Source: Euzebya tangerina
GTDB taxonomy: Bacteria > Actinomycetota > Nitriliruptoria > Euzebyales > Euzebyaceae
Direction of reading: 5' to 3'
Assembly (NCBI RefSeq): GCF_003074135.1
Contig: NZ_PPDK01000001.1
Coordinates: 744,001-808,000, forward strand
Length of the DNA stretch: 64,000 nucleotides
In this document: positions 24,421-50,586 of the stretch, piece after piece
How positions within the stretch are numbered: position 1 is the first letter of the stretch
Layout: the number at the start of each line of letters is the position of its first letter
The notes under the pieces: model-generated
What the model was told of the DNA's origin: nothing
The model's database searches: none
What the model saw: the letters and a program-made list of their open reading frames with translations, nothing else
Made by a program: the position numbers and the translations under genes

Positions 24421-26352
24421 TCAGGAAGGTTGGATCCCGGGCCGGTCGCGCCAACGGTTTCGCATACGGCGGAGGCGTTCGTTGTCGCGGTCGGTGTGGA
24501 CCTTGGAGAACTCCGGCCCGGTGGGGCAGTGGTACTTCCGGGCCGAGGCGGGGTCCTCGACGATGTCTCCGTCGAGTTGCTGCAGTACCAGTTGGGCGAT
24601 GCGTTGCCCGGGTGTCAACGACATCGGGACCTCGCTCAGGTTCACCAGCTCGAGGGTCAGCGATCCTTTGTAGTTGGGTTCAATGAACGTGGCGGTCGCC
24701 GTGACCAGCCCGAGTCTTCCGTAGGAGGATCGGGTGAGGACCTGCGCCGAAAGGTCGCCGGGCATCTTCAGGTACTCGAGGACGTGCGCCAGGACGAGCT
24801 CGTTGGGGTGCAGTACGAACGGCTGTCCCCACCGCTTCTGGGTATACGCCTGGATCGCGCGTGCTTCGGGTACCTTCTCCAAGGGGTTGAAGGCCTCGAT
24901 GCGGTTGGAGCGGAACAGGACGAACTTGTTGCCCAGCCGCAGGTCGACGCTCGCCGCCCCGATGCTCAGGTCCATCAGCGGAGTGATGACGAGACCCCTG
25001 TCAGGTCCTTGCTCGAGGCGCCGCCGAATTCCGGTGGAGCTCAGGGCGGCGCCCGCGATGTCGGTCAGGGGCGGGTCCGGATGCAGTTCCGGTTCCGTGC
25101 GGACGTCCGCCGGGTCGGTCGCTGCTTCCCACTGGCTGAGAAACTCGGTGACGTTGAGGGAGTAATTGACGAGATCGCTGACGGGGTATCGGGTCCCACG
25201 GTGGATGGCGACCCAGCCGCCGTTGAGGATGTCGGCGTCGTCGAGTACCTCCGCCTGCTCGGACCGGGTGGTCGGGAGGCCGTGCTCGACCCTGGCGGCG
25301 ACGCGCGCGACGTTGGCTGCTGCGGCGGCGGGGTCCCACCCCTTCACGTCCCAGTCCTTCACCGCGGCCATGATCTCCGTGGTCTGGCCTGAGACGTCCT
25401 GTGTGAGCAGTCGTGCCCATTCGTCGGGGAGTTCGTCGATCCGGCCCTCGAGGTCACGCCAAGGGGTGATCAATGGCTCCATGACGGCGGGCACGTCGGT
25501 GTCCTCCAGCCAGCTCACCATCGCCTGCAGGCGCAGCCAGGAGGGTGGATGGGTCTGGGTGTGGCCGTGCGCGGAGGCCGCATGCAGGAAGGATCCGAAG
25601 GCAGCGAGCGCCGCCGGCCCGAACCGGTGGATGCTGTAGGCGTCGCAGATCAGCTCCTCGATCCACGCCGTTCGCCATTCACTCAGGGTGCTGACCTTGA
25701 CGTCTCCGTCGACCCCCTCGGGGAGGGCCACCGTGTCGGCCTCCTCCTCGAAGGCCTCGGGGGTCGTGAATCGTTCGAGCGTCGGGCGTTCCCGTGTGGC
25801 GAGGTGGGCGACTTCGTGGCCCAGGAGGACCGGCCGCCAGGTCGAGGAGGCACCGGTGAGCCGGGGGACCTGGAGCAGCGCCATCGACGGTGTGCGCTGT
25901 ACGTCGGCTCCTTCGGCGGTCAGGTTGCTGAAGAGGATGTCCTCTAGTGAGCCGATGACGGTGCCGAAGTGGTCGGGGCGTCCGACCGTGACGACCGCGA
26001 TGCGGGTTCCCGACAGGAGTTCGTCGCAAGCCCGTTCCGCGGCAGCGGTCAGTGCGGGCGGCACCTCGGCCTCGACGGCGCGCAGAACGAAGTCGTCGAC
26101 CTTCTCCACTACGCGGTTGACGTGCTTGAGGAATCGCTCCGTCTGCAGCCGGCGGACGGTTGGCTGGCTCTCCCAGGTCTTGTGGAACGCGTCGCGGACC
26201 GCATCCGGGTAGGTGGCCACGAGCCCGAGCGCTGATCTTAGCCCCGCACGTGACTCATCGAGCCCGCCGAGGATGTCAGTGATGAGCCGCTCGTAGCCGT
26301 CCAGCCGGGACAGCAAGATGCGTCGGAGCTCGTCGGTGAGGGCATCGGCCAC
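24421..26352 (-). CDS. Metalloprotease - dCTP deaminase-like fusion protein
   Basis: 643 residues. The N-terminal 420 residues contain a zinc-protease signature, LLGHEVAHLA (H179-E180-x-x-H183) and, about 50 residues on, EELICDAYSIHRFGP, the usual EExxxDxxxxxxxGP third-ligand region. The C-terminal 210 residues form a dCTP deaminase/dUTPase-like domain: SVDLRLGNKFV, PFVLHPNELVLAHVLEYLKM, LTRSSYGRLGL, TATATFIEPNYKGSLTLEL with the catalytic-position Glu568, and LTPGQRIAQLVL. All visible deaminase key residues are kept. dCTP deaminases deplete dCTP as an antiphage defence. It lies 10 bases after a small partner gene, downstream of a perfect SOS box. Confidence 0.8.
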   Translation of the reverse strand: MADALTDELRRILLSRLDGYERLITDILGGLDESRAGLRSALGLVATYPDAVRDAFHKTWESQPTVRRLQTERFLKHVNRVVEKVDDFVLRAVEAEVPPALTAAAERACDELLSGTRIAVVTVGRPDHFGTVIGSLEDILFSNLTAEGADVQRTPSMALLQVPRLTGASSTWRPVLLGHEVAHLATRERPTLERFTTPEAFEEEADTVALPEGVDGDVKVSTLSEWRTAWIEELICDAYSIHRFGPAALAAFGSFLHAASAHGHTQTHPPSWLRLQAMVSWLEDTDVPAVMEPLITPWRDLEGRIDELPDEWARLLTQDVSGQTTEIMAAVKDWDVKGWDPAAAAANVARVAARVEHGLPTTRSEQAEVLDDADILNGGWVAIHRGTRYPVSDLVNYSLNVTEFLSQWEAATDPADVRTEPELHPDPPLTDIAGAALSSTGIRRRLEQGPDRGLVITPLMDLSIGAASVDLRLGNKFVLFRSNRIEAFNPLEKVPEARAIQAYTQKRWGQPFVLHPNELVLAHVLEYLKMPGDLSAQVLTRSSYGRLGLVTATATFIEPNYKGSLTLELVNLSEVPMSLTPGQRIAQLVLQQLDGDIVEDPASARKYHCPTGPEFSKVHTDRDNERLRRMRNRWRDRPGIQPS

Positions 26353-26362
26353 CGGCGACGAC

Positions 26363-26848
26363 CTACATGTCGGAGGTGATGAGGACCTCGCCGGTGGACC
26401 GCGAGGCCATCGCAGCGCGGGCGAGCGATTCGAAATAGTCCCTCAGCTGGGCTGCGTTGTCCGAACGGCCGTCCATGACCTCTGTCAGCCGGTCCAGCAG
26501 CTGCGCCAGACGGGGGCCGATGGATGCATCCTTAGGGGTTTCGGTCCCCGACGGGGTCGTGCGCAAGGCCGCGATCACGACCCGTGCGTCGCTGACCGGA
26601 CGTCTGGCCCTGCTGTTACTGGACCGCTCGTGTCCCGGGAGGTCCACGCGTGCGGTCGCGGCGACACCGACGATGGCGTCACCGGCAGCCTTGAGGGTGC
26701 GGCGTCCCGCGTCATCGATTCTCTCGCCGGCTTCGAGGGCATGCAGGGTGGCGACCGCATTGATCGCGGTCGCGGCGAGGCCAAGGGTGCGATCCCGGCC
26801 CGTCGCACGCGTGTCGTGGGCCGTCGGCTGGGTGCTGGTGGCGTTCAT
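26363..26848 (-). CDS. Small unknown protein co-transcribed with the protease-deaminase
   Basis: 161 residues from ATG 26848, which has GGAG six bases upstream; an ATG at 26875 would add nine residues without a good site. Predicted mostly helical, with an Ala-rich first half (AINAVATLHALEAGERIDDA) and a C-terminal RLAQLLDRLTEVMDGR. No motif recognised. It precedes the protease-deaminase gene by 10 bases and shares its promoter region, so it may be a partner, inhibitor or sensor. Confidence 0.7.
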   Translation of the reverse strand: MNATSTQPTAHDTRATGRDRTLGLAATAINAVATLHALEAGERIDDAGRRTLKAAGDAIVGVAATARVDLPGHERSSNSRARRPVSDARVVIAALRTTPSGTETPKDASIGPRLAQLLDRLTEVMDGRSDNAAQLRDYFESLARAAMASRSTGEVLITSDM

Positions 26849-26908
26849 GGCATCTCCATTGTCCGTGTCGATCATCCTCGCACGTCGCCGGCATCGGATG
26901 TCGGCCGG

Positions 26909-26927
26909 ATGCGGGGATTCCCCACAT
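26909..26927. promoter_or_regulatory. Second palindrome in the divergent control region
   Basis: ATGCGGGGATTCCCCACAT has GGGGATTCCCC as a core 11-bp inverted repeat extended by ATG/CAT arms. It lies four bases from the SOS box, on the side of the protease-deaminase operon. It may be an operator for the divergently encoded helix-turn-helix-like protein, or an mRNA hairpin. Confidence 0.45.
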
Positions 26928-26931
26928 CGTA

Positions 26932-26947
26932 TCGAACATGTGTTCGA
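26932..26947. promoter_or_regulatory. LexA SOS box
   Basis: TCGAACATGTGTTCGA is a perfect palindrome and an exact match to the actinobacterial LexA consensus TCGAAC-N4-GTTCGA. It lies 83 bases before ATG 26848 of the minus-strand operon and 88 bases before GTG 27036 of the plus-strand gene. On the minus strand a TACGAT -10-like hexamer follows directly, so LexA would block that promoter. Confidence 0.85.
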
Positions 26948-27035
26948 CAGTCTGCCGCGGTAATGGTCACAGGACCAGCATATTCGGGTATTCCTCTCTC
27001 ACCGTGGAGGCTCCACGATGAAGTAGGATCAAGGG

Positions 27036-28007
27036 GTGCAGCCAGAGGATTTCCTGCGGGACCGGAAGGGGTGGGGCGATGAGGAGGCTGTCTGGGAGGC
27101 CGGCCCGGTCCCGGATCTGGCCGCCGCGTGGGGACAGCACCGGGTCGCATCCGCGGTCCAGGCTGCGCTGACGGAGGCGGGGTGGTCACACGAACGCCTG
27201 TCTTCGGCCCAGGGTGCACCTGGACAGGGCGAAGGGGTTAGACGACGGCTTCGGGGTATGACGTGGATGTCCCTCTCGGACCTAATGGCCTGGACGATGC
27301 TGTTCGGCACTCGCATCGTGGAGGGCGTCTTCGAGGCGCCCTACACCCCGCCGGGCCTGCTGGTCGCTCCGAGTTGGCGGGAGGGCACCATGTCCCTTCC
27401 GGAGCTGCAGCAGCGCGGCGTGGACACGATTGACTGGGACGACGCGTGTGGCTGGTTGGCGTCGACGTTGTCGGGGGCGGAGTCCGGACCGAGCCGGCTC
27501 TACGATGCGTCGGCGCTGCGGTTAGTCCTCGGGCTGCGCCTCGTGGAGCGCGGATTCCCCGCCGAGGGCGTCTGGCCGTCGGAGAGGGAGGACGGTGAGG
27601 TGGCGGCGACGCTCATGCTCGGCTCACCGCCGGTGCGACCGGTCACCGTGATCCGGCTCGCGCGGCGTGATGAGGCCGCCGGGTTGGCCCGCGATGCCCG
27701 TGCGGCTGCCAGGGTGTTACTGGGCGGCGTTGCCGACCCGGAGTCCACCGGGGGCCGGACGATCGTGGTGGCCGCGTCGGGCCGGGCTGCGACCTCGACG
27801 GTGGAAGGGATGTTCGACCACGACCCCTGGAACCATGCCGGGGCGAGCAGCACACCGGTCGGGTTGTTCCGCGATCTGATCGAACAGGAGGCTGACGCCA
27901 CGATCATGCGGTCGGCGACGGTCGAGGTCGATATCGTGTCGGCCGCCCTCGAAGAACGGCACGGCGTCGTCGTGCTGGAGGTCACCAAGAGGCAGTTCGT
28001 CGACTGA
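27036..28007 (+). CDS. Putative XRE-like regulator or sensor, divergent from the protease-deaminase operon
   Basis: 323 residues from GTG 27036; a TAGGAT -10-like hexamer ends six bases upstream (27024-27029), suggesting a leaderless transcript. Residues about 35-90 (RVASAVQAALTEAGWSHERL and WMSLSDLMAWTMLFGTRI) resemble a degenerate Cro/C1 helix-turn-helix. Residues 95-320 are of unknown alpha/beta type, with VIRLARRDEAAGLARDARAA and VEVDIVSAALEERHGVVVLE. Sharing the control region with an SOS box suggests it controls or monitors the neighbouring operon. Function not known. Confidence 0.55.
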   Translation: MQPEDFLRDRKGWGDEEAVWEAGPVPDLAAAWGQHRVASAVQAALTEAGWSHERLSSAQGAPGQGEGVRRRLRGMTWMSLSDLMAWTMLFGTRIVEGVFEAPYTPPGLLVAPSWREGTMSLPELQQRGVDTIDWDDACGWLASTLSGAESGPSRLYDASALRLVLGLRLVERGFPAEGVWPSEREDGEVAATLMLGSPPVRPVTVIRLARRDEAAGLARDARAAARVLLGGVADPESTGGRTIVVAASGRAATSTVEGMFDHDPWNHAGASSTPVGLFRDLIEQEADATIMRSATVEVDIVSAALEERHGVVVLEVTKRQFVD

Positions 28008-30099: not shown

Positions 30100-32868
30100 C
30101 TAGCAGACGCGCCCGACACTCCTGGAGGCGGCTCGGCGGGTTGACAGCTCTGCTTGGAGTTGCGCGTGGTGGGTCCATCGGTGCTGTTCGGCTTGTGCCT
30201 GGTGGTGGGCGGTCTGTTGCGCACCGGAGTTGGACAGGATCCCGGACAGCTGATCGTTGGACGCCGGGGGTGTGGTCGGGTAGTGGTGTTGTTCGTGGTC
30301 GGGGTCGGTTGGGTTCGTGAGGTGGATGGTGTTGGTGTCTCTGCCGCGCGTGGTGCCGACGTACAGGCTTTCGCGGGTCATGCTAGGGGTGGCGAGGAGG
30401 TGGGCGGTGTCGTGGGTGGCGCCTTGGGCGCGGTGGACGGTGACGGCGTAGCCAAGCTGCACATGTGCGGTGGCGTACTCGGCGGGCAGAGTGAGGGTGT
30501 TGCCGCGGGGGCTTGTGCAGGTGATGGTGCCGTCGGGGTGGATGGCGGTGAGTTGCCAGTGGTCGCCGTTGCGGACCCACTGTCCGGTGCTGGTGGTGAG
30601 CCGGCGGTTGTTGCGTCGGGTGATGATGGCGTCGCCGACCATCGCCAGGGTGCCGTCGGCCAGACGCACCGCCGTCGAGGTGTCGACCAGACCGGTGGCG
30701 ATGCGGAGGGTTTGGGCGTGGCTGTTGAGTTGGGTGACGGTGTCGTGAGTGGCAGCGATCATCAAGCTGGACCGGCCCTGGTCGAGGTCGGCCTGCCACG
30801 CATCAACTAGGGTCGCGACAGCCTGGTCGGGGTCGGGGGTGTGGCGGATGCGGTCGTGCTGCTGGTAGGTGCGGATGGCGGCGGGGTTGCCGTCACGAAG
30901 TTGGAGCGAGGCCTGCTTCTCCCAGTCGTTGGTGAACCGGTGGATGCCGGTCAGCTCTGGCACGTCCTCACGCTCGTGCACGAGCAGGCTGAACGCGCCG
31001 CCGGCCTGGACCGAGCCGAGCTGGGCCCAGTCACCCAACAGCAACACCTTCGCGCCCTGCTGACGGGCATGGGCGACTATCCGGTCGAGGGCGTGGGTGC
31101 CCGCCAGGGACGCCTCATCAAGGATGACCAGCTGCCCCGGATGCAACCCGGTTCGGCCGGTCTGGTGGGTGTGGAGCCACTTGGCGGTGTTCTCCGTCCC
31201 GACGCCCAGGTCCTCGGCGAGGACGGCGGCGGCCGCCGCAGACGGTGCCAGGCCGATCACCGATCCGGTGCCGTAGGTGCTCTCCCAGGCGGCCCGCATC
31301 GCCCGCATGGTGGTGGTTTTGCCGGCACCGGCCGGGCCGACCAGGAGATCCAACCGACGACCAGAGGTGCCGATCGCGATCAGCGCCGCCGACTGGTCGT
31401 GCGACAGCGGCCGGTCAGGATCGGCCGTGGCGGCCTGCGCGAGATGCCGGACGGGCACGGTCGGCCCGCCGGTCTCCTGTGCGGTGGCCAGCAGTCGGGC
31501 TTCGGCGTCCAGCAGGGTCTGGGCGGTGAACACCGCACTGTGGGCGGGTCGGAACACACTGGTGCCATCGGGTCGTTGCAGCTCCGGGCCGACCGGCGTC
31601 AACTCGGGTGGGGTCAGCCGCACCGACAGGCCCTCCGCCGCCGCAACGATCTGGTGGATAGCTTCCTCTCGTGCTGTCGGGTTGGGGATGCGGATGCTGA
31701 TGGTGTGGCGGGATGCTTCGGCGTGCAGGTTCCAGTACCGCCATGTCGACCGACGCTCGCCCACCACCCCCACCACCCGCAACGCGATCCGGCTGACCTG
31801 CTCCTCAGAAAGCACCGTGAGGTTGTCGATGTCCCGGCCGACGACCTGACCCAGCAACCCCGCTGGGTCCTGGTCGAGCACGTTCTGGGCTTGCCGTTGC
31901 CACTCATCAGTCAGCTCAGTGAGGGATCGGACGGTCTTGTCGGGTCGGGTAGCGATGGTGGCCTGCTGCCGCAACCGGATGATCGTCTCCGCCGACGGGC
32001 CGTGCCCATGCTCGGCCCGGTACTGGCCGATCAGGTCGTCCTTGACCGCGGCGATGTCGGCTGATCGGGAGGAGAACAGCTCAAGCAGCTCCTCTGGGAT
32101 GCCGGTGATCTCCCAGCCGGCGTTGCGGTCGGCCCCACGATCCCGGGGTGCCCAGGTCACGCCGAGGGTGTGGGTGAGCCGGTCGGCCAGCAGGGCGTTG
32201 TAGTGCTCTGACAGCGCTACGACCGCGGCGTGTAGCGGTCGGCCGTCAAGGCTGCGCCAGCGGCCATCGAACACCGCCCGGGCTTTGTTGGCGATCACCA
32301 CATGGGTGTGCAGCTGCGGATCGCCGGCGCGGGAGTCCCAGTGATCAAACCCGGTCGCGATGATCCCGTGGACGGGGGCCTGGGCGACCGGCCCATCCGG
32401 CCCGGTCGCACCCGCCCTGGTGGCGGCAACCTCCCGTTCGACCAGCCCGATCACATCACCGATCGCGCCGTGATGCGCCGCCACCACTGCCGCACGAACC
32501 TCGGGTGTTGCGAGTGCCCAGAGGACCGACACCGACTTGGGCACACTGAATGTGTAGTCAAACCCCGCCACTGCGCGACGCCCCGACTCCGGCTTGTACA
32601 CCGGGAAGCCCCGCCCCAACGGCTGGCCGGTGATCGGGTCGCGGCCCTCCCCGAGCAGCCGCCGCAGCTGGTCTTCGGTGACGACATCGCCGGGGGCGAT
32701 CCAGCCGTCCCCGAGGCTAGCGACGCCTGTGCCGAGCCACCGGCCGGGCGGGGTCCCGTCGGCGGTGTAGTAGCCCACCAGCGGATCTGACAGTGATCGG
32801 TCACCATCACCGACGGCGACCGAGGCGAGCAGGTAGCGGTAGCCGGCGCCGGCCGACATCACCCGCAT
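30100..32868 (-). CDS. MobF-type conjugative relaxase-helicase (TrwC/TraI-like)
   Basis: About 922 residues if ATG 32868 is used; a GTG at 32892 is equally possible. The TrwC relaxase domain (first 300 residues) has a tyrosine pair near the start (AGYRYLL), FSVPKSVSVLWAL, and the metal triad H-x10-H-x-H in FDHWDSRAGDPQLHTHVV. A RecD-like SF1 helicase follows, with Walker A LLVGPAGAGKTTTMRAM, VILDEASLAG, LLGDWAQLGSV and the C-terminal motif VTVHRAQGATHDTAHL. It nicks oriT and unwinds the transferred strand during conjugation. The presumed oriT is the region just beyond its start. Confidence 0.92.
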   Translation of the reverse strand: MRVMSAGAGYRYLLASVAVGDGDRSLSDPLVGYYTADGTPPGRWLGTGVASLGDGWIAPGDVVTEDQLRRLLGEGRDPITGQPLGRGFPVYKPESGRRAVAGFDYTFSVPKSVSVLWALATPEVRAAVVAAHHGAIGDVIGLVEREVAATRAGATGPDGPVAQAPVHGIIATGFDHWDSRAGDPQLHTHVVIANKARAVFDGRWRSLDGRPLHAAVVALSEHYNALLADRLTHTLGVTWAPRDRGADRNAGWEITGIPEELLELFSSRSADIAAVKDDLIGQYRAEHGHGPSAETIIRLRQQATIATRPDKTVRSLTELTDEWQRQAQNVLDQDPAGLLGQVVGRDIDNLTVLSEEQVSRIALRVVGVVGERRSTWRYWNLHAEASRHTISIRIPNPTAREEAIHQIVAAAEGLSVRLTPPELTPVGPELQRPDGTSVFRPAHSAVFTAQTLLDAEARLLATAQETGGPTVPVRHLAQAATADPDRPLSHDQSAALIAIGTSGRRLDLLVGPAGAGKTTTMRAMRAAWESTYGTGSVIGLAPSAAAAAVLAEDLGVGTENTAKWLHTHQTGRTGLHPGQLVILDEASLAGTHALDRIVAHARQQGAKVLLLGDWAQLGSVQAGGAFSLLVHEREDVPELTGIHRFTNDWEKQASLQLRDGNPAAIRTYQQHDRIRHTPDPDQAVATLVDAWQADLDQGRSSLMIAATHDTVTQLNSHAQTLRIATGLVDTSTAVRLADGTLAMVGDAIITRRNNRRLTTSTGQWVRNGDHWQLTAIHPDGTITCTSPRGNTLTLPAEYATAHVQLGYAVTVHRAQGATHDTAHLLATPSMTRESLYVGTTRGRDTNTIHLTNPTDPDHEQHHYPTTPPASNDQLSGILSNSGAQQTAHHQAQAEQHRWTHHAQLQAELSTRRAASRSVGRVC

Positions 32869-32938
32869 CGACACCGTCACTAGCCACACCACCCGTCACA
32901 GAGGTCCACATTCGACAGGTGCGCTCGCGGTCCCCAGA

Positions 32939-32957: not shown

Positions 32958-33164
32958 CATCTGCAAGACGTGTGAACGAATGGGGGTTGGCAGTTGGATG
33001 ATGGGGTGGAACGGGGCTGCTGGTTCGGGGATGGGCGGGGTCGGTGGGGCGACGGGTGTACCTGGCTGATGGGTTCGGCTCGCGATGGAGTCGGTTGGCG
33101 GAGAGGTCTGGGTGCTGGTGTGACGACGATGATGGTGGCGGATCTTTTAGGCGAGGTTGTGAGG

Positions 33165-33995
33165 ATGACCAGGCGCGATGCCGCCTTGCGCTTTGCTGCG
33201 GCAGGACTCCCGGTGTTTGTGTGTGTGCCAGGCGGGAAGCGTCCGTTGACCCGACACGGGTTTCACGACGCGACCATCGAGGCGTCGCAGATCCAGGGGT
33301 GGTTCGACCGATGGCCCGAGGCCAACCTGGCCATCCCGACGGGCGGCGCCAGGTTCGATGTGGTCGATGTCGATGTCCGGCCGTCCGGGTCTGGCATGCC
33401 GACGCTGCGACGAGCTGACGCGGCCGGGCTCTTGGATGGTTGGGCGTGCAGGGTCACCACACCATCGGGTGGACAGCATCTGTACTTCAACACAGAACCA
33501 TCGCGCCAGCAGCGGTCGTGGACGTCGGCCGGCACGCACATCGACTTTCGCGGCGACGGCGGCTACGTCCTGGTCCCACCCTCGGCCGTGGACACTCCGG
33601 CTGGGCCGGACAGCTACCGACTGTGCGCTACCGGGACCGGGTCTGGCCGGGTTGACGCGGGTCGACTGCGCCGGTTCCTGACTCCCCCCGCGGGCCCATC
33701 TCCGCCGCCGTCGGGGCCGGCACGGTCGAGTCGGGCACGCTGGGAAGGATTGGCGACGTGGGTGGCCACCCGGCCAGAAGGCACCCGCAACGCATCGTTG
33801 TTCTGGGCAGCTTGCCGCGTCGCCGAGGCGGGAGCCGCGGAGACACCTGTGATGCTTCTGCTGCGTGACGCGGCGCTGCGCTCGGGACTGGGCGAGCGGG
33901 AAGTCACTGCGACGATCCGCTCAGCCAGCCACACCATCGGGAGCGCCAGCCCGCAACCGGTAGTGCGTCGTCCCCAGCACGGCCTATCGCGCTGA
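33165..33995 (+). CDS. Bifunctional primase/polymerase (Prim-Pol, AEP superfamily)
   Basis: 276 residues from ATG 33165, chosen because family members begin with a similar RxDAALxxAAxGxPVFP; earlier in-frame starts (33129, 32994) add low-complexity sequence. Prim-Pol features: PVFVCVPGGKRPLTRHGF, LAIPTGGARFDVVDVDV (catalytic DVD), VTTPSGGQHLYF (SxH) and IDFRGDGGYVLVPPS. The C-terminal 80 residues (EGTRNASLFWAACRVAEAG) are the usual helical extension. It probably primes replication of the mobile element or its transferred strand. Confidence 0.87.
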   Translation: MTRRDAALRFAAAGLPVFVCVPGGKRPLTRHGFHDATIEASQIQGWFDRWPEANLAIPTGGARFDVVDVDVRPSGSGMPTLRRADAAGLLDGWACRVTTPSGGQHLYFNTEPSRQQRSWTSAGTHIDFRGDGGYVLVPPSAVDTPAGPDSYRLCATGTGSGRVDAGRLRRFLTPPAGPSPPPSGPARSSRARWEGLATWVATRPEGTRNASLFWAACRVAEAGAAETPVMLLLRDAALRSGLGEREVTATIRSASHTIGSASPQPVVRRPQHGLSR

Positions 33996-34083: not shown

Positions 34084-34800
34084 ATGATGCCGACAACCAG
34101 CCGAGTGCCAGACACCGACCCCAGCCATGGCGGCCCACCGGCCTTGCCAGGTAAGGACGGCTCAGCCCGGGCATCGTCGCCGTCGGCGAGACCCGGTCCG
34201 GTGCTAGCCTCTGCCCCGAAGGTCGGGCGGATACGGGATCGCGGGTTGAGCGCAGGACAGCGAGCAGGCGAGGGCGGCGAGGATCTGAACGACCTGGCTG
34301 TCCGGGCACGATCGGGCGACACCCAGGCGCTGGACCGGCTACTTGAACGCATCGATGCTGACGGGCTGGTCCGGGTTCCCGTCCGGCGAATCATCACCGA
34401 CCGCACCACCGTCGAGGACGTCTGCCAAGACCTGCTCATCATCGTCGCCGAACGCATCGATCGGTGGGACGGCCGCAGCCGGTTCACGACCTGGCTGTAT
34501 GCGGTGGCCAGAAACCGGGCCATCGACACGATCCGTCGAAACCGACCGACCGAACAACTACCCGCCGAGCTGCCACGCGAACAGCAGCGGGTCAGCTCGC
34601 TGATCGCGGACCGGCTCCGAGTCGACGAAGCACTAGCGGACCTGCCCGACAACTACCGCCAACCCGTGGTGCTGCGAGACGTTGACCAGCATGACTATGA
34701 CGAAATCGCAGCCATGCTCGACCTGCATCCGGCAACCGTCCGGACCCGGGTGTCACGAGGACGGGCCATGGTGGCAGCACGATGGAGGCGTGAGGGATGA
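34084..34800 (+). CDS. RNA polymerase sigma factor (sigma-70 family, ECF-like)
   Basis: 238 residues from ATG 34084; the true start may be later, because the first 80 residues are a Pro/Ser/Arg-rich tail with no family match. Region 2: LNDLAVRARSGDTQALDRLL, TTVEDVCQDLLIIVAERIDR, TTWLYAVARNRAIDTIRR. Region 4: VDEALADLPDNYRQPVVLRD, YDEIAAMLDLHPATVRTRVS and RGRAMV. The ATGA overlap with the following kinase gene means the two are co-translated, so the kinase may act on this factor or its regulators. No anti-sigma gene is beside it. Confidence 0.87.
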   Translation: MMPTTSRVPDTDPSHGGPPALPGKDGSARASSPSARPGPVLASAPKVGRIRDRGLSAGQRAGEGGEDLNDLAVRARSGDTQALDRLLERIDADGLVRVPVRRIITDRTTVEDVCQDLLIIVAERIDRWDGRSRFTTWLYAVARNRAIDTIRRNRPTEQLPAELPREQQRVSSLIADRLRVDEALADLPDNYRQPVVLRDVDQHDYDEIAAMLDLHPATVRTRVSRGRAMVAARWRREG

Positions 34801-36542
34801 CCGAGAGACTCCAAGGCCGGTACCGCATCACCGAGCTGTTGGGCAGCGGCGCCTTCGCCACCGTCCACAAAGCCCACGACGAGCAACTCGATGACTGGGT
34901 TGCCATCAAGATCCTGGCGCACAATCACAGCGTCAACCCCGAGATGCGCGGCCGGTTCATCGCCGAAGGACAGATCCTGCGCCGACTGCAGTCCCCCCAC
35001 ATCCTGCAGGTCCACGACCTTGCCGAGACCGACGACGGCCGCCCCTACCTGGTCACCCAACTTGCCGACCGTGGCACCCTACGAGCCCGTGTACAGCAGG
35101 CACGCGCCGACGGGTGGACGGTGGATGACCAGTCGCTGCTCCCCGTCGCTCAAGCCCTGGCCTTCGGCATCGACACCCTGGCCGCAGCCCAAGTTGTCCA
35201 CCGCGATCTCTCCCCCTCCAACCTTCTGCTGACCACAGCCCCCGCCGACCCCAACGGCTCATCCGACCAGCTGGTCGGAGCAGACGAACGCCTCATCATC
35301 GCTGACCTTGGGTTCTGCAAAGACCTGGCACTCAGCAGCGGCATCTCCGCCACCGGCGGCACCGACGGGTTCGCCCCACCCGAACAACACACCCTGGGCG
35401 CAGCAGTGGACGTCCGATCCGACCTCTGGGCCGCCTCAGCCGTGCTGCACTGGATCGCAACAGGCCACACCCCCAAGCGAGCACCCATCGCAGAGCGGGC
35501 CATGATCACCGCAGGCCTGACACCCGCGTTCGCCCACGCCGTCGCCGAGGGCCTCCACGACCACCCGGCCGAGCGACCCACCTCTGCCGACGCATGGATT
35601 GGCGCCATCACCTCTGCCGCAAGACCCGCCGGAGCCGGCACAACCACAACCGGCACGGACGATCGAACAGCAGCAGTACGCACCCGGCCGCACCTCATGA
35701 TCGCCGCCGTTGCAGCGATCTTGCTGCTCGGCTTGGCCACCCAAGTCCTCGGCAACGATGAACTCCCGCCCGCATCGGTGACCATCCCCGGCACCGCCGC
35801 CGAGGCTGCACAGAACGAGGCACCACCCGTGCCCATCGACGAAGACGTCGAGAACGACACCCAACCCACAGGGTCGACACCAACCATCCAACCCTCGGCC
35901 GCACCAACCGGGGAAGAGTCCACCGAGCAGGAGCCAACAGCGCCGCCGCTACCCATCGATGTCGGCACCCCAGTAGGCGGCACCTGGTCCTTCCACATCG
36001 TCAACCGCAACGATTGGGAGTACGACGTCGAGGTGACCATCAGCGCCGCCTACGGGTTTGACAAAACCACCAGTGACTCCGGCCCCGGCGATGCCCGAAC
36101 GGTCACGGCAGTCGATGGCGGCTACGAGTTCACAGCCATCCCAACCATCACCGACCGCGACTCACCAGAAGTAGACCAGGCATCCGCAACCGCGCGCTTC
36201 GGCAACGACATCCTCACCGGCGCTCTCGGTGCCGACCCCTGCCCATCAGAAATTTGGAACCAAACGGGCGGCACCGACTACGGCATCTACTGCCTCCTCG
36301 ATGAGGGGCATGACAGCCAAAGCAGCGGCGAATCCTGGACCACCCGCCCCGAAACCGACATCGACAACATGCTCGCCACCATGCAAGACCGCGACCCCAT
36401 CGCCTACTCCTTCGACATCAGCACCTGCGAGATCTGGCTACTGCCCAACGGCGACGTCATGCCCGCCACACGCGGCAACAACTGCGACATCACCGGCCGC
36501 ACCGTCATCCCCGAAGGCACACCCGGAGGACTCGACCGCTAG
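34797..36542 (+). CDS. Receptor-type Ser/Thr protein kinase
   Basis: 581 residues. Kinase domain (about 7-270): LLGSGAFATV glycine loop, VAIK (Lys38), VVHRDLSPSNLLL (catalytic Asp137), IADLGF (Mg-binding Asp170, in the bacterial DLG-like form) and GFAPPEQ. A Thr-rich juxtamembrane stretch, one membrane segment (about 300-318), then an external domain of about 260 residues with a Pro/Glu/Thr-rich stalk and a C-terminal beta-rich part carrying two or three cysteine pairs. HRDLSPSN replaces the usual HRDLKPxN, a change also seen in active kinases. Coupled to the sigma factor by a 4-base overlap. Confidence 0.88.
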   Translation: MTERLQGRYRITELLGSGAFATVHKAHDEQLDDWVAIKILAHNHSVNPEMRGRFIAEGQILRRLQSPHILQVHDLAETDDGRPYLVTQLADRGTLRARVQQARADGWTVDDQSLLPVAQALAFGIDTLAAAQVVHRDLSPSNLLLTTAPADPNGSSDQLVGADERLIIADLGFCKDLALSSGISATGGTDGFAPPEQHTLGAAVDVRSDLWAASAVLHWIATGHTPKRAPIAERAMITAGLTPAFAHAVAEGLHDHPAERPTSADAWIGAITSAARPAGAGTTTTGTDDRTAAVRTRPHLMIAAVAAILLLGLATQVLGNDELPPASVTIPGTAAEAAQNEAPPVPIDEDVENDTQPTGSTPTIQPSAAPTGEESTEQEPTAPPLPIDVGTPVGGTWSFHIVNRNDWEYDVEVTISAAYGFDKTTSDSGPGDARTVTAVDGGYEFTAIPTITDRDSPEVDQASATARFGNDILTGALGADPCPSEIWNQTGGTDYGIYCLLDEGHDSQSSGESWTTRPETDIDNMLATMQDRDPIAYSFDISTCEIWLLPNGDVMPATRGNNCDITGRTVIPEGTPGGLDR

Positions 36543-49506: not shown

Positions 49507-49760
49507 GTGCGGATCGATTGGCCGAACGTCGAGGCCCTACGCCGTCGGTTGGAACTGACCACCGAAGACAGGGCGAAGGTGTCGCCCGCCATGGCCCTAC
49601 GGATAGAGGGTGCCAGCAAACTCGTTGACACAGCCAGGCCGCTCGCCTCGTCCAACCCAGCAGATCTGCCAATTCGAGGAGCGGAGACTTGTTGTGCCGT
49701 GGATGCATCTATGACTGCCGGACGCGGGTGTGCTGGAGCCTGTACGAGGATTCCTTCTGA
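49507..49760 (+). pseudogene. Small cysteine-rich protein, frameshifted
   Basis: One frame from GTG 49507 reads DWPNVEALRRRLELTTEDRA, KVSPAMALRIEGASKLVDTA and NPADLPIR. After a one-base shift near 49677 another frame continues SGDLLCRGCIYDCRTRVCWS to a stop at 49760. The four-cysteine C-terminus and helical N-terminus fit together as one small zinc-binding-type protein of about 84 residues. It stands before the M48 gene at the border of the conjugation locus. Confidence 0.45.
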
Positions 49761-49794
49761 AGGCGGGGACAGACCGGTCTCGCCCCCAGCGTCG

Positions 49795-50586
49795 ATGGTG
49801 CGCCACTGGGCCGAGGTGCCGCTGCTGTGGCTGTGCAGCTTGGTCACGATGGCCGGTGCGGTGACGGCGGGCTACTTCATTTGGCAGGACCGGTCGGTTC
49901 CGGAGTGGGCGCTGGGCTCCACGGTAGGGCTGCTTGCTCCGGTGGTGGCGGCTGTTGCGATCCGCTGGTTGTTCTGGTCGCAGATCATCAACGCGGTGCC
50001 GGTATCGCCGAATCAGTTGCCTGATCTGTTTGGACTCTACGAGTCGTTGGTGGAGCGGATGGGATTGGGCTACCGGCCACGTCTGTTCGTAGTCAATGGC
50101 AACGGGAGGGTGAATGGGTTTGCGGCGAAGTGTCGCGTGCGTCGTGGCTATGTGGTGTTGTCCAGTGATCTGGTCGACGTCGGCTATGAGCTGGATGAGT
50201 GGGACACTGTCCGTTTCGTTCTGGCGCACGAGTTGGCGCATATCAGGTGTGGGCATGTGGCGCTATGGCGCACAGCGATCCGGTTCCTTCCCGGCCTTGT
50301 ACGGCTCGATCGGAGTCTGACGCGGGCGCAGGAGTACACCGCGGACCGGACCGCGGCGTTCTTTGTCCCCGAAGGTGCGGCCGGCCTGATGCTGTTGTTT
50401 GGGGGAAAACGGGTTCATCGGCACGTAGACGTCGGGGCATACCGGGAGTCCGTGGCTGAGCTGGGCGAGAGCATCTGGTTGCGGCTAGCCAATGCGTTGT
50501 CAGATCATCCGGTCGGGTTCCGGCGCATGGAACCGCTGTTGCAGGTTGACGAGCGGGGGTGGGACGTCCATGGACGCATGTTCTGA
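49795..50586 (+). CDS. M48-family membrane metallopeptidase
   Basis: 263 residues from ATG 49795; the open frame extends upstream but that part belongs to another broken gene. Two membrane segments (about 7-30 and 40-62), then the protease domain with FVLAHELAHIRCGH (HExxH zinc site) and AQEYTADRTAAFF (third ligand Glu, ExxxD). Relatives act in membrane protein quality control; conjugative elements carry similar genes. It overlaps the start of the next gene by 17 bases. Confidence 0.85.
   Translation: MVRHWAEVPLLWLCSLVTMAGAVTAGYFIWQDRSVPEWALGSTVGLLAPVVAAVAIRWLFWSQIINAVPVSPNQLPDLFGLYESLVERMGLGYRPRLFVVNGNGRVNGFAAKCRVRRGYVVLSSDLVDVGYELDEWDTVRFVLAHELAHIRCGHVALWRTAIRFLPGLVRLDRSLTRAQEYTADRTAAFFVPEGAAGLMLLFGGKRVHRHVDVGAYRESVAELGESIWLRLANALSDHPVGFRRMEPLLQVDERGWDVHGRMF

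Follow-up and report, generated by a model that had tools for sequence, protein, structure and literature searches.

A LexA-box-preceded metallopeptidase–deaminase fusion in Euzebya tangerina, a rare fused form of a recurrent and apparently undescribed three-gene module

Why would a bacterium carry a metallopeptidase-like domain and a DCD-family dCTP deaminase in a single polypeptide, with a LexA box upstream? The question is raised by a locus of Euzebya tangerina (RefSeq assembly GCF_003074135.1, contig NZ_PPDK01000001.1) found in a stretch of 64,000 nucleotides, positions 744,001 to 808,000 of the forward strand, hereafter called the window; all coordinates below are counted from its first nucleotide. 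An earlier note on this DNA, made from the sequence alone, had described an HEVAH metalloprotease region and a complete dCTP-deaminase-like domain in one protein, a 10-base gap to a small partner gene and a perfect LexA box upstream, suggestive of SOS control; all of these sequence features were borne out by the open frame, the family profiles and the motif scan. The features of the operon are as follows.

24421..26352, minus strand: fusion protein P0001, HExxH domain plus DCD domain, 643 amino acids, GTG start (open frame, family profiles).
25063..26352, minus strand: gluzincin-like metallopeptidase domain at the N-terminus, residues 1-430 (distantly homologous to split HExxH proteins).
25804..25818, minus strand: HEVAH motif, residues 179-183 (translation, alignment).
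25642..25656, minus strand: EELICD region with Glu233, presumably the third zinc ligand, and with Asp237 (invariant in the alignment).
24502..25044, minus strand: DCD-family deaminase domain, residues 437-617 (TIGR02274, Pfam DCD, AlphaFold/Foldseek).
24649..24651, minus strand: Glu568, equivalent of the catalytic Glu138 of E. coli Dcd (alignment).
24679..24681, minus strand: Glu558, where the superfamily has the conserved Asp128 (alignment).
26363..26848, minus strand: small partner gene P0002, 161 amino acids, or 170 if the start is at 26875 (ATG with GGAG before it).
26932..26947, no strand assigned: perfect actinobacterial LexA box TCGAACATGTGTTCGA, 0 mismatches (motif scan).

The DCD part of P0001 scored 132 bits against the equivalog TIGR02274 (cut-off 92.8) and 118 bits against Pfam DCD (cut-off 27). 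AlphaFold gave a good prediction for it, with pLDDT values of 80-94 in most blocks, and Foldseek matched this model to the Dcd-Dut of M. tuberculosis (E value 7e-15) and also to the E. coli enzyme. Ser542, Arg546 and Glu568 are retained, with Glu558 replacing Asp. As the same genome encodes at other places a complete dcd of its own and a dut-like gene, P0001 is not a housekeeping dcd produced by the assembly. The HExxH half matched no family in Pfam, NCBIfam, PHROGs or PADLOC, and P0001 used as query detected no relative in the scanned genome contigs or viral contigs.

Homologues of the two halves were revealed as separate genes. A tblastn search of plasmids detected dcd genes with genes for HExxH proteins directly before them. 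A wider alignment had no conserved stretch; a profile built from four closer split homologues, without any deaminase sequence, served as query against 84,980 species genomes. It returned 57 species loci, in Proteobacteria and Bacteroidota, and in every one (57/57) a module-type DCD gene was found directly downstream of the HExxH gene, mostly overlapping it. The spacing was between -112 and +5 bases in 56 of them, the remaining locus having a broken HExxH gene, and in most of the 57 a gene for a protein of about 100 amino acids lay directly upstream. Judged from the sequences, the fusion locus is a rare fused form of this recurrent set of three genes (small helical protein, HExxH protein and DCD). 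P0002 lies upstream of the fusion gene, 10 bases away (26353-26362), in the position of the first gene of the split module. Homologous genes are thus usually separate but always adjacent, which refutes the possibility, allowed for in the earlier note, of unrelated neighbours joined by assembly error.

All 57 scanned loci were split and P0001 was the only fusion seen; no second fusion was detected in a scan of actinobacterial genomes, in which one of 396 was positive. The module is also sparse, being present in 1/199 genomes of one Bacteroidota order. Degenerate or broken copies of its HExxH gene were seen at L102:7851-8926 and L035:4441-5674. No description of such a module was found in the full-text literature searches or in the family libraries searched, so it is apparently undescribed, as had been proposed for the fused combination.

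The fold of the HExxH protein was analysed on a split homologue, whose AlphaFold model was confident (pLDDT 92.9) and was used in place of the corresponding half of P0001. The HExxH and E...D residues were invariant in 28/28 aligned split homologues and are also present in P0001. Structural neighbours of the model included ZMPSTE24, Ste24 and BepA, which are M48-type gluzincins, with Z of 5.5-7.3, which is below the threshold for telling helical folds apart, and the Pfam M48 score of the module protein was below cut-off. These data are suggestive of a fold leaning to the M48-type gluzincins. The models of M78 and CapP gave no match, and a search of phage records with one HExxH protein as query yielded no homologue. 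Anthrax lethal factor was also considered and discarded, as it gave a Foldseek E value of 0.27 and a TM score of 0.19, plus sub-threshold family matches, which are no sign of a relation beyond an HExxH region.

Related HExxH proteins were also found in other company. Two halobacterial plasmids (L027:3250-4801 and L028:2968-4462) encode a small protein and a related HExxH protein without dcd, adjoining a convergent gene for a protein of about 730 amino acids. On a plasmid of Sinorhizobium terangae (L115:1-6552), the gene for a related HExxH protein is in an apparent operon with that of an ATP-binding protein of around 1.6 thousand amino acids and also adjoins a gene for a C25 cysteine peptidase.

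How firmly the fusion belongs to this module depends on its HExxH half. Against the profile of the main clade it reached only an hmmsearch E value of 0.73; when two intermediate plasmid homologues, from Bradyrhizobium and Rhizobium phaseoli, were included in the profile, the value became 1.5e-5, above more than 3,000 decoys, and the half aligned with the split family at the motifs HExxH, E...D and HP..R. The DCD domain of P0001 groups with those of the same Bradyrhizobium and R. phaseoli plasmids (type-B), outside the main clade of 59 members. The linkage typical of the module is present, in this case within one frame, as are the loss of Asp128 and the conservation of Ser111, Arg115 and Glu138 (E. 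coli Dcd numbering). Therefore, P0001 is assigned to the module because of its architecture, its motifs and a remote similarity.

The active site of the module deaminases was compared in 62 sequences, using the E. coli Dcd numbering and disregarding three supposed housekeeping sequences that had been read on the wrong strand. Ser111, Arg115 and Glu138 were invariant (62/62), whereas Asp128 was lost in all 62, being replaced by Gln in 57, Glu in three and His in two. The 121-124 loop was three residues shorter in 59 of them and one residue shorter in P0001 and its two nearest relatives. Established knowledge, together with the titles of structures of the E. coli H121A variant and of the M. tuberculosis A115V variant with dTTP and the title of a 2007 regulation paper, points to a part of this loop in the dTTP switch of Dcd. 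The equivalent of Asp128 is conserved throughout the superfamily and required for dUTP hydrolysis and for the contact with the 3'-OH (PMC3360063). With the Asp for dUTP hydrolysis lost and the loop of the dTTP switch altered, dUTP would build up without normal feedback, and the predicted product of the module enzymes is dUTP with altered feedback. A shortened loop and a Glu at the position of Asp128 were also seen in a different dcd, which adjoins an RNase HII gene on an Acidiphilium plasmid (L041:3182-4456).

Regarding expression, perfect LexA palindromes were found at three places in the whole genome (4.78 Mb): upstream of the P0002-P0001 operon, upstream of recA (RecA equivalog, 566 bits) and upstream of a gene for a DNA polymerase III alpha/error-prone polymerase of the dnaE type. 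The reversed control pattern gave 0 sites in the whole genome, and the predicted operator of the fusion operon matches the recA operator of this genome. Because the three perfect sites include recA and the dnaE-type gene, there is strong evidence from the operator sequences that the fusion operon would belong to the LexA regulon. LexA-type boxes were also looked for upstream of the split modules and were not found; the E. coli module had a single upstream match to CTG-N10-CAG, too weak to count as one.

The split module is carried by plasmids of about 90-98 kb in E. coli and Salmonella. Among complete E. coli genomes it was present in 8/5426, each time on a plasmid of 90-109 kb; the module of the E. 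coli phage-plasmid occupies 18973-20965 of NZ_AP019805.1. The backbone of two module plasmids that were compared is that of phage D6-like elements and, in a base-by-base comparison, the 1.45-kb segment that bears simB between pmgF and mat was replaced by the module and two small genes, with a G+C content of 37% vs 46%.

The genomic company of the module was also analysed. CapP-like genes adjoin seven modules (7/32 genomes), with 0.07 expected (Poisson P ~2e-12, treating loci as independent); this expectation was computed for this type of neighbour alone, from the 23 CapP-like genes that these 32 genomes hold in around 160 Mb. CapH was confirmed adjoining three modules. Single-stranded DNA or DNA damage is the signal to which CapH-CapP responds in its control of neighbouring immune operons (PMC13373217). 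In rhizobial islands, a multiubiquitin-E2-ThiF operon is followed by the module, and the following slot is occupied by SIR2 or PtuA in sister islands. Some modules are inside or beside type I restriction-modification (R-M) loci and others are near TIR genes. In many alphaproteobacteria (L046-L054, L026, L034, L038), genes for multiubiquitin and E2/ThiF (E1/E2), often with DUF6527, lie directly upstream of the module. It is possible that these genes and the module form a joint system. Bub/6A-type systems and multiubiquitin-E2-ThiF operons are among the closest known systems; as no such genes were seen at the window or at the E. coli and Bacteroidota loci examined, they accompany the module but do not define it.

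The module was also compared with known systems. Published antiphage dCTP deaminases such as AvcID are zinc-dependent enzymes of the CDA fold restrained by a small RNA, whereas the module has an enzyme of the DCD/dUTPase fold, a protein partner and a metallopeptidase, and P0001 matched no PADLOC model up to an E value of 1, those for the published antiphage dCTP deaminases included. The likeness lies in the proposed outcome, the removal of dCTP during infection (review PMC12409349). With the housekeeping Dcd and Dcd-Dut of E. coli and M. tuberculosis (TIGR02274) the module shares the fold and Ser111, Arg115 and Glu138, but it differs in the lost Asp128, the shorter switch loop, the linked HExxH and small genes and an accessory distribution. 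CapH-CapP, PprI-DdrO and similar protease-repressor regulators of immune operons resemble it in having an HExxH protease and DNA-damage-controlled expression; in contrast to them, the module protein matches no M78 or CapP model and leans in its fold to the M48-type gluzincins.

The rest of the locus and its surroundings were also examined. P0002 matched no family in Pfam, NCBIfam, PHROGs or PADLOC. The divergent gene is the following.

27036..28007, plus strand: divergent gene P0003, 323 amino acids (open reading frame, no family match).

The reading frame of P0003 exists, but its previous description as XRE-like could not be upheld, as neither a helix-turn-helix nor any other family was matched in the same four libraries; searches of 30 related genomes and of the plasmid collection gave no relative. 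P0003 may be a regulator. A MobF/TrwC relaxase-helicase is encoded at 30100-32892 (minus strand). Its relatives are numerous in Euzebya genomes, one of which has 24 matching pieces, and this suggests a mobile element close to the module. Also in the window are a primase/polymerase-like protein (32994-33995, plus strand; phrog_5852), a Ser/Thr protein kinase with partial likeness to the defence kinases MAD6 and PglW, far under their cut-offs (34797-36542, plus strand), and a distinct Peptidase_M48 protein above the Pfam cut-off (49507-50586, plus strand).

Indirect support for a role of the module in conflict or defence comes from its neighbours, from its carriage on plasmids and a phage-plasmid and from the DNA-damage regulators beside homologues. 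To this extent the candidate defence system of the earlier note stands, but its appeal to an established antiphage effector is not transferable, because the published enzyme has the CDA fold and the one described here has the DCD/dUTPase fold and is unmatched in PADLOC. We consider the proposal of a DNA-damage-controlled conflict module, probably antiphage and of an abortive type, that would attack dCTP, to be evenly poised between right and wrong. The broader proposal, put forward with somewhat less than even confidence, is that the module would be an immune system, widespread and so far undescribed, whose gluzincin protease and altered DCD-fold deaminase would constitute a DNA-damage-triggered dCTP-to-dUTP weapon on plasmids and phage-plasmids, sometimes fused. 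In such a mechanism, replication stress or infection would generate single-stranded DNA, RecA would trigger the cleavage of LexA and the operon would be expressed; the peptidase could act as a sensor or processing switch, possibly removing the small partner, and the deaminase would turn dCTP into dUTP, whose accumulation without the usual feedback would leave the replicating DNA starved or uracil-loaded. The effector may be cleavage-activated or self-processing.

Several observations weigh against this interpretation. The HExxH half of P0001 was poorly predicted by AlphaFold and appears homologous to the split family, but distantly; similarity between P0002 and the small proteins of other modules was not detectable; the type-B DCDs, that of P0001 included, are nearer to housekeeping Dcd than the main clade is; and some Bacteroidota modules have non-defence neighbours. 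Moreover, the altered active site could be that of a dead or re-purposed enzyme.

In an alternative with inverted roles, the DCD would be a catalytically altered sensor of nucleotides (dUTP, dTTP, dCTP or modified ones of phages), and binding by this sensor would make the metallopeptidase, as the effector, cleave host or phage proteins. The changes common to the 62 deaminases, with a loop shortened and Asp128 lost while the nucleotide pocket is kept, would agree with it, as would the HExxH proteins with other partners in the two halobacterial plasmids without dcd and beside the Sinorhizobium ATP-binding protein, as expected of an exchangeable protease. However, the three residues kept in all 62 are those that deamination requires and binding by itself does not, and we judge this inversion unlikely, while giving it real weight.

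A damage response outside defence, in which SOS induction would adjust the dNTP pool (dCTP to dUTP/dTTP) and so serve repair or mutagenesis together with the dnaE-type polymerase, is likewise improbable but a live alternative. It would explain why the only perfect LexA boxes are those of recA, the dnaE-type gene and the fusion operon, and CapH-CapP-controlled Bub operons are also without shown phage protection (PMC13373217); in contrast, a sparse spread on plasmids and phage-like elements, the exchange at the simB slot and the R-M, SIR2, PtuA and TIR neighbours are untypical of repair metabolism. That P0001 is simply a redundant Dcd of ordinary nucleotide metabolism, fused by chance to an unrelated upstream gene, is very hard to believe: its TIGR02274 score is indeed above the equivalog cut-off, but a complete dcd and a dut-like gene are present elsewhere in the genome, the HExxH gene is next to DCD in all 57 loci and Asp128 is lost in all.

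If the reading of a damage-controlled conflict module attacking dCTP is true, the housekeeping DCD/dUTPase fold would have been made, beside the CDA fold, into a weapon against the nucleotide pool that is paired with a protease, and two separate DNA-damage switches, LexA in Euzebya and CapH-CapP elsewhere, would serve one effector. As E. coli and Salmonella have a version of the module on phage D6-like plasmids, this reading is open to direct tests in laboratory strains.

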